From contig KB906738.1 of the NCBI GenBank assembly GCA_000381585.1, positions 124,001-188,000 of the forward strand: a DNA stretch of 64,000 bases. The letters are read 5' to 3'. Shown here in pieces: positions 7,592-33,124 of this stretch (positions within the stretch are counted from its first letter, which is position 1; each line of letters begins with the position of its first letter). The position numbers and the translations under genes were made by a program. The notes below the pieces were generated by a model. It was not told the origin of the DNA. It was given only the letters and a program-made list of their open reading frames with translations, and searched no databases. This stretch comes from Acidobacteriaceae bacterium KBS 83 (GTDB lineage Bacteria > Acidobacteriota > Terriglobia > Terriglobales > Acidobacteriaceae).

Positions 7592-9292
7592 CTACTCCTG
7601 TTGGGATGCCGCGTCCCACTGTGGAGTGAAGTCTTCTTCGGACGACCCGGAATGGTATTCGTAGGGGCCGCGCCCGACGGTTACGGGGGCGTGGACCGGT
7701 TGCCATTCGAGCGTGGTGGCCTGCCAGGGATTATCGCCGGCGGCTCTGCCGCGGCGGGCGCTCCAGACGAGATTGAAGAGGAACAGAAGCTGTGCCGCGC
7801 CGAGGACGAGAGCTGCCCAGGTAACGCCGCGTTCCATGGGGAGCAGCGAGGCGAGCGACGAGGTGCTGCCTGTAACTTGGGCGTAGTGTCGCGGCCGGCC
7901 GGCCAGACCCTCCAGGTGCATGGGAAAGAAAGTGACGTAGGCGGCGATGAGCGATAGCCAGAAATGCCAGCGACCGAGGCGTTCGCTCATGAGGCGGCCG
8001 GTCATCAGGGGGAACCAGTAGTAGATGCCGGCGAAGATGGAGAACGCCCCAGCCATCGCCATGATGAGGTGAAAGTGCGCGACGACGAAGAAGGTGTTGT
8101 GGAGGTACTGATCGAGCGCGGGCAGGGCAAGGATGGGGCCGGTGACGCCGCCGGCGATGAAGAGCGAGAGAAAGCCGAGGGCGAAGAGCATGGGAGTGGC
8201 GCGGCGAAGGCCGCCGCCCCAGAGGGTGCCGATCCAGCTCAAGACCTCGGCGGTGGAAGGGACGGCGATGGCCATCGTGGTGAGCCCGAAGGCGGTGCCG
8301 GCGTAGGGATTCATGCCGCTGACGAACATGTGATGACCCCAGACGACGAAACCGAGCAGGCCGATGAGCACAGTGGCGGCGGCCATCATGCGGTAGCCGA
8401 CAACGGGGCGGCGGCTGAAATTGGCGATGAGGCTGGAGACGAGTCCCATGCCGGGGAGGATGGCGATGTACACCTCCGGATGGCCGAAGAACCAGAAGAG
8501 GTGCAGCCAGAGGAGCGGTGAGCCGTCGCCGTGGCCAACGACCTGGCCGCTGATCCAGTCGCCTTGGGGAACGAAGAACGCCGTGCCGAGGTGGCGGTCG
8601 CAGAAGAGGAGCACGAGCGCGGCGAAGAGCACCGTGAAGGCGAGCAAAATGAGGATGGCGGAGACGAACCACGACCATACGGTGAGCGGCATGCGTCCGA
8701 GCGTCATCCCACGGGCGCGCTCGGTGAGAACGGTGACGAGGACGTTGACCGCGCTGAACCAGGAGCCGAGACAGAAGAGCCCGATGCTGACGAGCCAGCA
8801 GTCCATGCCGCCGCCCTGACCGGGCCCGGCGGATGCGACGGCGCTGTAGGGCGGATAGCTGGTCCAACCGGCTATGGGGCCGCCGGCCGGAAGCAGGAAT
8901 GCGGAAAGCAGGACCAGGAGGGCGAGCGCGACGATCCAGAAGCCGAGTGCGTTGAGCCAAGGCAGGGCCATGCGGCGCGCGCCGATCTGTTGAGGAAGAA
9001 CAAGGTTGGCGAAGCCACTCTGCGGCGCGGTGGTCAGCACGAAGAAGACCATGAGGGTGCCGTGCATGGTGACTAGCGAGAGGTACTCCTCCGGCAGCAT
9101 AGGGCCGTGCAGCGGCCAGCGAATGCCGGGAGATGCGAGCTGCACGCGCATTGCGAGCGAGAGCAGCGTCCCCACAAAGACGGCGACCAAGGACAAGAGC
9201 AGATAACGGATGCCGAGGGTCCGATCATCCGTGGTAAAGATGCGCTTGAGAAGTGTTGGGCGTGCGGGGCCGCCGGCACGGAGATCGTTCAT
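7592..9292 (-). CDS. coxA: Cytochrome c oxidase subunit I (haem-copper catalytic subunit)
   Basis: The catalytic subunit of an A-type haem-copper oxidase, which reduces oxygen to water and pumps protons across the inner membrane. Conserved landmarks are TMHGTLM (low-spin haem ligand), WFFGHPEVYIAILPG (Cu-B His with cross-linked Tyr), VWGHHMF (two Cu-B His) and VVAHFHLIMAMAG (haem ligands). About twelve membrane segments are present. The ATG at 9292 is chosen because GAGGGTG lies just upstream and because it follows coxB by 7 nt; an ATG at 9322 would overlap coxB and lacks a ribosome site. The C-terminal 40 residues are hydrophilic. Long open frames on the opposite strand are composition shadows. 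Confidence 0.97.
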   Translation of the reverse strand: MNDLRAGGPARPTLLKRIFTTDDRTLGIRYLLLSLVAVFVGTLLSLAMRVQLASPGIRWPLHGPMLPEEYLSLVTMHGTLMVFFVLTTAPQSGFANLVLPQQIGARRMALPWLNALGFWIVALALLVLLSAFLLPAGGPIAGWTSYPPYSAVASAGPGQGGGMDCWLVSIGLFCLGSWFSAVNVLVTVLTERARGMTLGRMPLTVWSWFVSAILILLAFTVLFAALVLLFCDRHLGTAFFVPQGDWISGQVVGHGDGSPLLWLHLFWFFGHPEVYIAILPGMGLVSSLIANFSRRPVVGYRMMAAATVLIGLLGFVVWGHHMFVSGMNPYAGTAFGLTTMAIAVPSTAEVLSWIGTLWGGGLRRATPMLFALGFLSLFIAGGVTGPILALPALDQYLHNTFFVVAHFHLIMAMAGAFSIFAGIYYWFPLMTGRLMSERLGRWHFWLSLIAAYVTFFPMHLEGLAGRPRHYAQVTGSTSSLASLLPMERGVTWAALVLGAAQLLFLFNLVWSARRGRAAGDNPWQATTLEWQPVHAPVTVGRGPYEYHSGSSEEDFTPQWDAASQQE

Positions 9293-28977: not shown

Positions 28978-29892
28978 TTATGGCTTCTCCGCGTCTAGAG
29001 TTTGAGACTTGGAACGCTTCCCGAGCGGCCGCTCGGAAGTGTCTCGCGTTTCGGTGACAGCTGTGTCCAGTCGCGCTGCGAGTGCGGAAAAGGAGGGCAA
29101 GGGCCCTTTCCATCGCAACTGTTCCACATCGTCGAAAAGTGGGATGTCTGTGCGAAGCGTGGCCAGCGTTCGGAAAAGCATGGCACTATCGCGCTCACGT
29201 GAGAGTGTGGAAGCAAGGGTCATTGCGCTGGACACATTCACACCCCACTCACGATAGTCCGCCGGAATGGATTCGAGATGTCCGAAGCGTGCGAGGACGG
29301 CAGCGGATGATTTCGCGCCCCAGCCGCGAAGGCCGGGATAGCCGTCGGCGGCGTCGCCCACCAGCGCCAAGTAGTCAGGGATGGACGCCGGTGTGACGCC
29401 GAACTTCTGAATGACACCGGCTTCGTCGCAAGTGACACGTGTCCGGCGATTCAGCTGAACAACGCGGGTGCCGCGAACACACTGGGCAAGATCCTTGTCC
29501 GGCGTGCAGAGGATGACCTGTTCCACGCGTGTATCATCGGCGGCTGCCAGCGCCGCGGCGGCCAACGCGTCATCTGCCTCGAATTCCACCATCGGCCATA
29601 CAACAATTCCCGCTGCCGCGAGAACCTCCTCGAGCAGCGGGAATTGAGCCAATAACTCGGGCTCGACCCCGGCGCTTGTTTTATAGTCCGGCCAAAGCCC
29701 ATTGCGAAATGATTCGATAACATGATCGGTCGCCACTGCGATATGGGTGACGCCGGTGTTCATCATACCCAGCACTGACGCGAGCACGCCGCGTACCGCA
29801 GCGACGTTTCTGCCGTCTTCATCACGCGCCGAGGGGAGTGCGTAGTAATGGCGAAATAGCTCGTATGTACCGTCGACCAGGTAGATTTGCAA
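28978..29892 (-). CDS. 5'-3' exonuclease (FEN/PolA N-terminal type)
   Basis: A 304-residue standalone flap/5'-exonuclease, related to the N-terminal domain of DNA polymerase I. Visible are IYLVDGTYELFRHYYA with the first metal Asp, VATDHVIESFRNGLWPDYK, EFEADDALAAAA (metal-binding acidic cluster), LCTPDKDLAQCV and the helix-hairpin-helix DYLALVGDAADGYPGLRGWGAKSSAAVL. It should cleave RNA primers or flaps during replication or repair. The TTG at 29892 is chosen because GAGG lies about 6 nt upstream and gives the usual start next to QIYLVDG; a GTG at 29931 is the upstream limit. No polymerase domain follows. Confidence 0.88.
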   Translation of the reverse strand: MQIYLVDGTYELFRHYYALPSARDEDGRNVAAVRGVLASVLGMMNTGVTHIAVATDHVIESFRNGLWPDYKTSAGVEPELLAQFPLLEEVLAAAGIVVWPMVEFEADDALAAAALAAADDTRVEQVILCTPDKDLAQCVRGTRVVQLNRRTRVTCDEAGVIQKFGVTPASIPDYLALVGDAADGYPGLRGWGAKSSAAVLARFGHLESIPADYREWGVNVSSAMTLASTLSRERDSAMLFRTLATLRTDIPLFDDVEQLRWKGPLPSFSALAARLDTAVTETRDTSERPLGKRSKSQTLDAEKP

Positions 29893-30106
29893 GGCGTGCC
29901 TCAGTGCAACCCTATATGTGCGGGGTATCACAATTTAACGTTTCACAAGCCTCCCCCGAACGCAATCCAGTGGAGAGCAATAGAGATTGAACTCATACGC
30001 GCGATTGAGCAATAGGTGCGTCTCTCGTGTTCGTTGGCCGACCAAGCACCAGCGATCCGGAGACTTATTCCGAAATGTGACCTGGCACGCGAGATGCTGG
30101 CACCTC

Positions 30107-31507
30107 TCACGCCAGCTTTCTCAACTCCGGATAACGGGCGTAGATGCGATGTTGATCTTCGGCGCTTAACTTACCAAGCCGCACGGGCTCGTCCTGCGGC
30201 CGCGTGCCTTTCTGATTCACGACGTTAACCAGACTCCATTCCCGCTGCAATGATACTGGCTCCTTTGCATGCAGATCGTATCGCGTGAAGTCGATCACCA
30301 TGTATGGCGTACTAGCCTTCCAATTCCTCAGGAGCGCGAGCCGGAACTCCTGGTTCATGAACCATTCGATTTCCAGATCTTTCTCCGAACCTGGCGCTCC
30401 TGTTCCGCGTTGATCGAAGCGATAGTTCAAGCGCGTGTTGTTCGGTGTGTGCTCCCGCCATTTCAATCCGAACTCGCCTTCTGACAAAACCTGTGTGTCT
30501 GGCCACCTGGCCTTTGTGGCCTGGAGCCAATTGGTGAGATCGGCATCGTGACCGATTGACGTCTCCCAGATCGCTGTGACCCACCCAAATCCGTTCAGTG
30601 TGTAGCCTCGATCAAAATGCACCGCGGTGGTATCCATCATTTCGCGGCGTCCCGCACCCGTTCCCAGGTTCCCCACCGACTCGATTGGTCCCACTCCGAG
30701 CCGGCTGTTGAAGCCACCTGTGAAGCCTTCTCTTCGCGCCGTCAGGAAATCACAGGTCCACCCATCCAGGCAGACGCAATCGATGAAGTCTGCCTTCCCC
30801 TGTGCGGGCTTCAGATAGTGCTCACGGCTGGGATAGTAGGGATAGCATATGCCGCCGTCACCGTCGCCATGGTCGATGCCGTGCTGACTCCAAATCTGGC
30901 CCTGACAAACGTGAATGCCCTCTTCCGTTGCGAGATAGTGCTGGCTCGCGGCATCCATAAATCCTGCAACTAACGACTGTGGACGATACCCATCGCCGAC
31001 CATCTGAGTGATTAAGCCCAACGCCTTATGGATCGTCTGCTGATTGTGTTCTCGCGTGTCATACATCGGCGCAAAATAACCGCCCGGAATGAACGTGATC
31101 TCATCCCCGTAACGATCGTGATAGGACGCGAGTAGCCGACGTGCATCTTTGTATTGCTGTCGATCGTCCTTGAGCGCGAGCCAGCTGATTGCCCAGGTCA
31201 TCTTGCCGTCGGGGCATCCTCGCTCGAAGGCCTCCCGCCTGGAACGGATATGGTCCGGGCTATTGTCCGCGGCTTCATCGTCACCGATGGAACGGGTGGG
31301 CGTGACCTCGATCTGGTTCACACGAACGACAGAAACGTGGGTGAGATATCTCCCACGCAGTGGCGACGGGGCATCAGCATAGCCCAACGCGCTCGGTACG
31401 CCTCCGGCCAGCGCAAATGACGCCGCGGAGCCCATCGTATTACGAAGAAACCGCCGTCTCGTCCAGGCAATTTCGGGTTGTCTTTGAATATTCCGCGGCT
31501 CCGTCAC
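30107..31507 (-). CDS. Tat-exported DUF3863-like protein
   Basis: A 466-residue protein with a twin-arginine signal (TRRRFLRNTMGSAASFALAGG). The body has RYLTHVSVVRVNQIEV, ITFIPGGYFAPMYDTREHN, GIHVCQGQIWSQHGIDHGDG, DFIDCVCLDGWTCDFL and NQKGTRPQDEPVRLG, which agree with what is remembered of the DUF3863 family, whose structures are barrel-like and whose function is unknown. The many conserved His, Asp and Trp residues suggest a carbohydrate-active or metal enzyme. It is divergent from the 96-residue/radical SAM pair. The first residue is an ATG at 31507, and the signal fits that start. Confidence 0.75.
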   Translation of the reverse strand: MTEPRNIQRQPEIAWTRRRFLRNTMGSAASFALAGGVPSALGYADAPSPLRGRYLTHVSVVRVNQIEVTPTRSIGDDEAADNSPDHIRSRREAFERGCPDGKMTWAISWLALKDDRQQYKDARRLLASYHDRYGDEITFIPGGYFAPMYDTREHNQQTIHKALGLITQMVGDGYRPQSLVAGFMDAASQHYLATEEGIHVCQGQIWSQHGIDHGDGDGGICYPYYPSREHYLKPAQGKADFIDCVCLDGWTCDFLTARREGFTGGFNSRLGVGPIESVGNLGTGAGRREMMDTTAVHFDRGYTLNGFGWVTAIWETSIGHDADLTNWLQATKARWPDTQVLSEGEFGLKWREHTPNNTRLNYRFDQRGTGAPGSEKDLEIEWFMNQEFRLALLRNWKASTPYMVIDFTRYDLHAKEPVSLQREWSLVNVVNQKGTRPQDEPVRLGKLSAEDQHRIYARYPELRKLA

Positions 31508-31543: not shown

Positions 31544-31780
31544 AGGTTATTCTTCGGGCCCGGATTCTTCGTGTTGAGCGGCCACTTCCGCCTGACGCGA
31601 GCTCTCTGTCCAATCTATTCATCTGCGAGCCGTTGTGTCCCGAAGTCTACATCGTCGAGGACGAGATCCGACTCCGTTGGCGGGTGTTTCAACCCAGCCC
31701 ACGAAACGCCAGAGGCTCTGGAAACACCATTTCCCAGGTATGCAGGTCCTGCAGCACGCCTCCGAGGAAGGAGTTTCACC

Positions 31781-32071
31781 ATGGAAAAACAGAACATCGA
31801 TGAGGTGGTCGAGCGTTTGCTCGCGACGCGACTGAACGTCTCAAAGGCAGAGTTGCGCAGCGTGGTTGAACTAGTGCACGCTGCCGGAGGACAAATCGTC
31901 AGTGCGTATGACGAAGACGGACCCTTATGCGGCACGAAAGTTCCTGGCCGACCGCCCAAGTTGGGTGGTTTGATCGATAACCTTGTAGCGAAGGGGTTCA
32001 CGGTCAAGCTATTTCCCTATGGCATTCCAGTCATCGATGAGGCATTCGTCCAGATTGGAAGGGGCGAGTAA
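31781..32071 (+). CDS. Unassigned 96-residue protein preceding a radical SAM gene
   Basis: A small soluble protein with no signal peptide or membrane segment. Residues 1-50 are predicted helical and charged (MEKQNIDEVVERLLATRLNV onward, ending near VSAYDEDG). The second half contains GPLCGTKVPGRPPKLGG with a single Cys, then a hydrophobic and aromatic stretch FTVKLFPYGIPVIDEAFVQI. No family is recognised. GGAAGGAG lies 7 nt before the ATG, one of the best ribosome sites in this region. The gene ends 12 nt before the radical SAM gene, so the two are almost surely co-transcribed. It could be a modified peptide precursor, a partner subunit or a recognition protein for the enzyme; sequence alone does not decide. 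Confidence 0.8.
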   Translation: MEKQNIDEVVERLLATRLNVSKAELRSVVELVHAAGGQIVSAYDEDGPLCGTKVPGRPPKLGGLIDNLVAKGFTVKLFPYGIPVIDEAFVQIGRGE

Positions 32072-32083
32072 GCCATCTTCACC

Positions 32084-33124
32084 ATGAGGATGCCAAACGT
32101 CACGCCTCCAGTCCTGCAGCTACATCCCAGCCGGGCCTGCAATTTGCGTTGTCTGCACTGCTACTCAAGTTCCGCACCCGGGGAGTGGCAGGAACAGGAC
32201 GTATTGCTGCTTTCCCGGGCAATCGCGGATGCCGCTAACCTCGGCTATCAAGTAGTCAGCATTTCTGGAGGAGAGCCCCTTCTTTACTCCGGCCTGCCGA
32301 GTCTTTTGCAGGAGACTCGGCGGTACGGGATGCGTACCACGATTACGACCAACGGCCTGCTGCTCGACCAGCGGCGCATCGAACTTCTCACAGACAGGGT
32401 CGATCTTCTTGCAATCAGCTTAGACGGCACGCCAGATCGTCACAACTCCATGCGCAACGCTTCTCGTGCATTTGAAACAATGCACAGCCGACTCAGTTCG
32501 CTGCGCAGCAGCGGCATCCCGTTCGGATTTTTGTTCACTCTCACGCACGAGAACATCGATGATTTGGCATGGGTGGCAGAGTTCGCCGCCGCGGAACAGG
32601 CGCAGCTATTGCAGATCCATCCTCTGGAAGAAGCCGGCCGTGCGCGGTCAACACTTCAGGGACAGACGCCCACGGACGTGGACGCAGCGATCACATGGCT
32701 TCTTGTGCAGCGGCTGAGCGATGAATATAGCAGCCGTCTCAGGATCCACCTCGACTTTCTGAATCGAGATGCGTTGCGTGATTTCTGTCAGAGCGGCTGG
32801 ACCTCGGGTTCCGTCGATTGCTCGAAATCCAATAGGCTTGCGGACTTTATTTCCCCTCTGGTAGTCGAAGCCGATGGCACCGTCGTGCCACTTCAATACG
32901 GCTTTCCTCGCGCCTACGCGCTTGGCAATCTAAACGACGTGCCGATCATGGAGATGGCCCGGAGATGGTTCAGTCAAGCACGATTGGATTGGGAAGGGCT
33001 GTGGGATCGGACGTCGAATTTACTATGCCAGACCGCGGAACTTCCGTTTGTGAATTTGTATGAATCCGTATTCGCTGCCGCTAGCGAATCACACTCGACG
33101 CCATTCCCCATTTTGAACTCGTAG
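32084..33124 (+). CDS. Radical SAM protein with degenerate SPASM/Twitch-like C-terminus
   Basis: A 346-residue radical SAM enzyme. The 4Fe-4S motif is Cys19/Cys23/Cys26 (CNLRCLHCYS), followed by VVSISGGEPLLYSGL (SAM contact), TTNGLLLDQRRIELL and LAISLDGTPDRHNSMR. This order matches the MoaA/PqqE/SPASM group that modifies peptides. In the C-terminal part, CQSGW, VDC and LLC supply three cysteines near 238, 247 and 320. The segment PLVVEADGTVVPLQYGFPRAYALGNL has the SPASM layout but Leu where a Cys is usual, so at most one auxiliary cluster seems possible. It follows the 96-residue gene by 12 nt and converges with the MATE gene. Substrate is unknown. Confidence 0.88.
   Translation: MRMPNVTPPVLQLHPSRACNLRCLHCYSSSAPGEWQEQDVLLLSRAIADAANLGYQVVSISGGEPLLYSGLPSLLQETRRYGMRTTITTNGLLLDQRRIELLTDRVDLLAISLDGTPDRHNSMRNASRAFETMHSRLSSLRSSGIPFGFLFTLTHENIDDLAWVAEFAAAEQAQLLQIHPLEEAGRARSTLQGQTPTDVDAAITWLLVQRLSDEYSSRLRIHLDFLNRDALRDFCQSGWTSGSVDCSKSNRLADFISPLVVEADGTVVPLQYGFPRAYALGNLNDVPIMEMARRWFSQARLDWEGLWDRTSNLLCQTAELPFVNLYESVFAAASESHSTPFPILNS

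Follow-up and report, generated by a model that had tools for sequence, protein, structure and literature searches.

A conserved gene pair encoding a small GxP-motif protein and a radical SAM enzyme, a probable substrate and its modifying enzyme

Introduction

In the SkfB and SuiB systems a small gene adjoins the gene for the radical SAM (rSAM) enzyme. These two enzymes are the closest solved folds (SkfB 6efn, Z 26.2, rmsd 3.5, 278 residues; SuiB 5v1t_A, Z 24.0) to the model of an rSAM enzyme encoded in the 64,000-nucleotide stretch of Acidobacteriaceae bacterium KBS 83 DNA analysed here (the window), which shares their CxxxCxxC motif. Unlike SkfB and SuiB, however, the window enzyme belongs to a family without conserved auxiliary-cluster cysteines and shows no N-terminal recognition domain in its model, and the candidate substrate encoded beside it is predicted to fold as a domain that bears a GxP motif at a turn and lacks any conserved pattern of Cys. 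The proteusin epimerases PoyD and OspD are described in a passage of PMC8326336 as carrying the SAM cluster alone, with no auxiliary clusters, as appears to be the case here, and as possessing a recognition domain at the C-terminus along with a Cys that is strictly conserved; in the present family, in contrast, a C-terminal Cys is missing in 8 of 53 aligned members, and family-model searches matched no nitrile-hydratase-like leader. The epipeptide epimerase EpeE also matches the window enzyme in fold (8ai4_B, Z 20.2) and has a small ribosomal substrate, as is proposed here, but is given two clusters in the same passage (PMC8326336), where auxiliary clusters are proposed as electron sinks in crosslinking rSAM enzymes.

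Resemblance to other systems is more partial. The haem-biosynthesis rSAM proteins NirJ, AhbC and AhbD account for the best NCBIfam scores of the window enzyme, over the barrel (TIGR04546, 92.7 bits), but the curated cut-off of 650 bits is far above this score and the match is limited to residues 9-213; all NCBIfam matches of the enzyme lie far under their cut-offs. Some relatives of the small protein have the LTPEEL...GG leader and C39 exporter of cyanobacterial double-glycine bacteriocin-type peptides, with weak matches to these (best E 0.006), whereas the window protein has neither leader nor exporter and the GIP core motif is absent from those models. We found no description of the pair in the open-licence full-text literature, where the motif strings gave 0 matches; subscription papers lay mostly outside the scope of this search, so one may exist.

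Results

The window gene pair, carried by a genome of 6.25 Mb in 21 contigs, consists of a small gene followed after 12 nt by an rSAM open reading frame (Table 1). This spacing, and the strong ribosome site of the small gene, stand as given in the preliminary description, with seven bases between GAGGAAGGAG and the ATG. An alternative in-frame GTG at 31571 would give a product of 166 aa; the start at 31781 is favoured because of the Shine-Dalgarno sequence and the length of relatives. Divergent from the pair is a gene for a DUF3863/DUF3864 protein (30107-31507, minus strand), a family label without a function, and the same strand encodes a stand-alone 5'-3' exonuclease of 317 aa (28978-29931) that resembles the N-terminal part of DNA polymerase I.

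Table 1. Features of the gene pair, in window coordinates.
Feature	Coordinates	Strand	Basis
Shine-Dalgarno GAGGAAGGAG of the small gene	31764..31773	+	sequence
Small gene, 96 aa, ATG start; proposed substrate protein	31781..32071	+	sequence; relatives upstream of orthologous rSAM genes
First-hairpin turn, residues 43-49, YDEDGPL; degenerate	31907..31927	+	alignment A4, model
Motif FPYGIPVIDE, residues 78-87, second-hairpin turn; proposed modification site	32012..32041	+	alignment A4, model, motif count
rSAM gene, 346 aa	32084..33124	+	PF04055; AF2 model
CNLRCLHC, CxxxCxxC of the SAM cluster, residues 19-26	32138..32161	+	sequence; three Cys invariant in 53/53
DGTVVPLQYGF, residues 264-274, SPASM-like segment without Cys	32873..32905	+	alignment

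The window enzyme is a member of the radical SAM superfamily, as evidenced by the barrel in its AF2 model (pLDDT 91.3), a match to PF04055 (E 2.7e-23; 83.4 bits against a cut-off of 29.5) and the CxxxCxxC cysteines, which are intact, as previously claimed. In the model a barrel strand begins at residue 10 and the final helices span residues 325-336; neither a fused winged-helix RRE nor another N-terminal recognition domain is seen in the 346 modelled residues, and a Pfam search gave no match for a separate RRE. SPASM proteins usually have a Cys right after a DGTVVP-type segment. In the window enzyme Leu270 occupies this position, consistent with the degenerate SPASM-like segment described earlier, and fewer than three of the 53 aligned family members (window included; the partial sequences L024, L048, L053 and L062 are excluded) have Cys in this column. 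Only one column beyond residue 200 contains more than five cysteines among the 53 sequences: Cys is present there in 45 and lacking in 8, among them the window enzyme, which has Trp307 and carries other cysteines at 235, 246 and 315. With E values up to 1 allowed, the window enzyme gave no Pfam SPASM match, and the C-terminal Cys set for auxiliary Fe-S clusters that marks SPASM/Twitch proteins is not conserved in this family. Since only one mostly-Cys column follows residue 200, and three members (L014, L040 and L058) have zero Cys past residue 100, an auxiliary cluster appears unlikely from the alignment. At a separate locus in a Nitrospira MAG (L053:5173-6531) the enzyme lacks its first ~40 residues, including the SAM-cluster motif, and is fused in frame to another ORF, which is a broken gene or an assembly join.

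The rSAM gene is rare and patchy, yet widespread across six named phyla (Acidobacteriota, Cyanobacteriota, Nitrospirota, Actinomycetota, Pseudomonadota and Armatimonadota). A scan of 84,980 species genomes, using a two-sequence alignment and two peptide patterns, met 500 stretches; among the best 80 of 363 relatives kept, at least 56 orthologous loci were recognised at 40-59% identity, the cut being placed at the drop in identity from 40% (L058) to 33% (L063). With three further loci from a profile search that covered 396 genomes from the phylum, this gives at least 59 outside the window; L003, L006 and L014 are one locus, and L055 and L056, whose enzymes are identical, come from two contigs of the same assembly. 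Of 299 genomes of the class, three contain the enzyme at E <= 1e-30, namely its own, G107 (47%) and G187 (28%), and the small ORF immediately 5' of the G107 enzyme gene ends in the same motif as that of the window.

This motif, a recurring string of FPxGIPxPD type, was read in ORFs upstream of rSAM orthologs. Because the curated small ORFs had been chosen partly by the motif, one upstream ORF per locus was picked blind, from ribosome site, start codon and distance with the motif ignored, and scored with the expression [FWILVYH]xxG[IVQTKLM][PV]; L053 was left out because its enzyme N-terminus is fused to another ORF. The motif was present in 45 of 48 picks at non-Saccharothrix loci (window included), against 95 of 1117 control picks, which resample the same loci and so are not independent; the three failures were L013 (TIGIV in place of the motif), L029 and L058. 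The two genes are accordingly a real, conserved unit, as the preliminary description had supposed in calling them a two-gene system, and the pair is present in many genomes rather than confined to this one. The same 45 picks provide what is asked of a RiPP locus, a small precursor gene conserved beside a modifying enzyme. In Saccharothrix, the blind-picked ORF contained the motif at 2 of 11 loci; the 11 loci (L045-L047, L049, L050, L052, L054-L057 and L060), on one side of a branch with support 93, have the enzyme without an adjacent small ORF. A search of seven genomes with profile A4, from the alignment described below, found no small protein in three Saccharothrix genomes or in the L029 and L058 genomes. 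Upstream of the L050 enzyme lie a divergent histidine kinase and a response regulator.

In the curated set the expression matched 45 of 46 small proteins, against 81 of 1424 other ORFs and a shuffled mean of 7.5 of 46, and two or more matches were present in 29 of the 46; the loci found after the motif had been spotted (L088-L090) all contain it (3/3). A stricter tally, whose pattern itself prescribes the G and P, gave 72 instances in 44 of the 46 proteins. Position -3 is F in 38, L in 20, H in 7, W in 4 and I in 3 of these; position -2 is P in 43 and I in 16; the residue after the Gly is I (49), T (8), Q (5), L (3), V (3), K (2) or M (2); and an acid stands 2-4 residues past the Pro in 55. 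Clustering of neighbours at 56 loci, the window not among them, yielded just the rSAM enzyme and the small ORF, plus exporter genes at a subset of loci, as families common to at least three groups. No MATE gene is among these families, and the adjacent MATE carrier mentioned in the preliminary description gains no support as an exporter from them.

The window small protein is modelled (AF2, pLDDT 84.6) as one compact helix-helix-hairpin-helix-hairpin domain up to residue 94, with helices 6-16 and 22-34, hairpin 38-42/50-55, helix 60-70 and hairpin 73-80/87-94. A helical leader at residues 1-50 preceding a Cys/Pro/Tyr-rich core had been envisaged; the model instead predicts a single domain, with one short turn motif as its conserved site, and a Cys-rich core is rejected by residue count, since residues 49-96 contain one Cys, five Pro and one Tyr. 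Neither a double-glycine site nor an exporter of its own was seen for the window protein, and it lacks the GSxxL-like N-terminal string of 24 of the 46 curated proteins. As already surmised, it falls in no curated family: Pfam and NCBIfam gave no match, a PqqD model and (in NCBIfam) a twin-arginine signal included, and no model of either database covers the small proteins as a whole among the 26 domain-form and 15 leader-form members searched. Matches among these members were a TAT signal (L014), weak double-glycine leader matches and scattered ones at E 0.02-0.1. The first of these concerns the relative at L014:5546-5977 (TIGR01409, 18.8 bits against a cut-off of 16.7), where a twin-arginine signal would export a folded protein. 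Among solved structures no significant fold relative was found (best Foldseek E 0.054), the best structural Z of 7.2, to a type II secretion GspL-type domain, being in the range that the tool calls common. The small-protein profile matched only the window protein itself in its own genome; of the 61 nearest genomes, the 60 others gave no match to that protein at E <= 1e-3, and viral contigs gave none. It is 33-35% identical to the L048 and L022 proteins.

Small proteins of the family occur in two forms, a domain protein of ~100 residues and a short peptide with a double-glycine leader. In the domain form (26 aligned proteins, alignment A4) the motif usually occurs twice, with one copy at the turn of each hairpin; all 26 share the second Gly (window G81), and the columns of the first G and P exceed 90%. 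The window protein keeps the second motif only, the first, present in most relatives of this form, being lost there and in L022. The leader form (16 loci: 15 in alignment A5, and L042), found in cyanobacteria and some proteobacteria, has LTPEEL-like text and Gly-Gly followed by the motif. A C39-peptidase ABC exporter lies near 5 of the 16 leader-form loci (L013, L021, L031, L034 and L061); Pfam identified C39 peptidase and ABC domains in 5/5 exporters tested, and HlyD-type partners were confirmed at L021 and L061, while the exporter cluster from the neighbour clustering contained no domain-form locus. Profile comparison aligned the two forms over just 18 N-terminal columns, so that it is the motif and the enzyme that speak for a common origin of the two. 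On the enzyme tree, a quick search in which 22 of 56 branches are open and the window sits on a long branch, one rSAM family accompanies both forms; the leader form is clustered, since it needs 3 changes against 13.5 in shuffles, with support that is partly weak.

Codon ratios for the small ORF were 0.02-0.04 in Nitrospira pairs, 0.11 in L020/L023 and 0.09-0.19 in Bradyrhizobium; the Nitrospira and Bradyrhizobium values indicate that it is a real protein under purifying selection. Three Nostoc pairs gave ratios of 0.56-0.74 and the Streptomycetaceae 0.61-0.82; a fourth Nostoc pair (L007/L042) gave 0.14, on three changes only. To judge from these ratios, the small protein behaves as a conserved cell protein in some hosts and as a fast-changing one in others, a split that does not match the two forms exactly because Streptomycetaceae carry the domain form.

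Discussion

We consider it likely that the pair comprises a substrate and its modifying enzyme, with a change at or near the GxP turn that is probably redox-neutral. In the mechanism we propose, the compact domain of the small protein would present the FPxGIPxPD sequence in a hairpin turn, and the rSAM enzyme, with its SAM cluster and no sign of auxiliary clusters, would take up that turn and abstract a hydrogen atom within or beside Gly-Ile-Pro, leading to a modification that requires no electron sink. The simplest candidate would be a changed configuration at the alpha carbon of the residue following the Gly, and the variability of this residue suits alpha-carbon chemistry. Redox-neutral chemistry, with epimerisation foremost, is suggested by the unlikelihood of an auxiliary cluster taken together with the statements on clusters in the cited passage of PMC8326336. 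Epimerisation is kept as the leading candidate chemistry only; the Cys that could have supplied its hydrogen is missing in 8/53, window included, which speaks against one fixed thiol donor. The leader form would probably be cut and exported, given its double-glycine leader and the C39-peptidase ABC exporter at some loci, whereas the window product would probably be the whole modified protein kept inside the cell, neither exporter nor cleavage site being seen there.

The repetition of the motif, and its occurrence on double-glycine-leader peptides beside C39 exporters, are signs of a substrate. The preliminary proposal of substrate and modifying enzyme fits, most clearly in these relatives, whilst its leader-core layout with a Cys-rich core does not hold for the window protein. 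Counting against a substrate are the 11 Saccharothrix loci with the enzyme and no adjacent small ORF, the 18-column limit of the alignment between the forms, and the high codon ratios of Nostoc and Streptomycetaceae. The Saccharothrix loci would suit a small protein that is instead a partner of the enzyme, a subunit for recognition or chaperoning in the way that PqqD assists PqqE, with a substrate encoded elsewhere or a small molecule; so would the modelled compact fold, the start of the enzyme barrel at residue 10 without a preceding recognition domain, and the slow evolution in Nitrospira. The repeated motif and its presence on exporter-associated leader peptides speak for a substrate instead, and no PqqD model matched; we regard the partner explanation as distinctly unlikely. 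The pair could also make a classical peptide natural product from a leader-core precursor whose core is released and exported; for the window this would require a protease and a carrier encoded elsewhere in the genome. The five exporter-associated loci of the leader form and the fast evolution in Nostoc and Streptomycetaceae agree with this, but the window protein is predicted to be one folded domain to residue 94 with no double-glycine site, the exporter cluster is devoid of domain-form loci and the whole Nitrospira protein is strongly conserved, so that a natural product seems unlikely.

Peptide spliceases follow an XYG rule, with Tyr-Gly at the splice site, and the PYG within the window motif might point to such an enzyme, excising a tyramine unit. 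Tyr precedes the Gly in just 9 of the 72 motif instances, however, and the splicease, which we hold to be very improbable, is rejected on this count. A glycyl-radical protein was considered for the invariant motif Gly and set aside, since many hosts of the pair presumably live in air.

If, as we favour, the enzyme acts on the GIP turn of a substrate, it would represent a family of rSAM modifications not yet described, marked by a simple signature in sequence and spread over six phyla; substrates of two forms make its recognition testable, and a peptide rSAM enzyme without auxiliary clusters narrows the possible chemistry. More tentatively, an rSAM enzyme without auxiliary clusters might mature a small folded protein by altering the GIP hairpin turn of its ~100-residue domain, for use as a whole protein in the cell and not as a peptide product. 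Conservation of the Nitrospira small protein is as tight as that of a housekeeping protein, and the same enzyme family stands beside double-glycine peptides in other phyla; if true, this would be a new kind of protein maturation, common to cell proteins and secreted peptides. Most such systems are regarded as making peptide products, and the slow-evolving form in these nitrite oxidisers hints at a function within the cell.

Another rSAM family, with about 28% identity to the window enzyme, is likewise preceded immediately by a gene for a small protein, as at L004 (2530-2865 with 1438-2469, both minus strand) and L005 (7551-7907 with 7938-9077, both plus strand). Its hosts are one genome from the window's own family and one Mycolicibacterium plasmid, and the latter half of its small proteins is rich in Gly, Pro and His.
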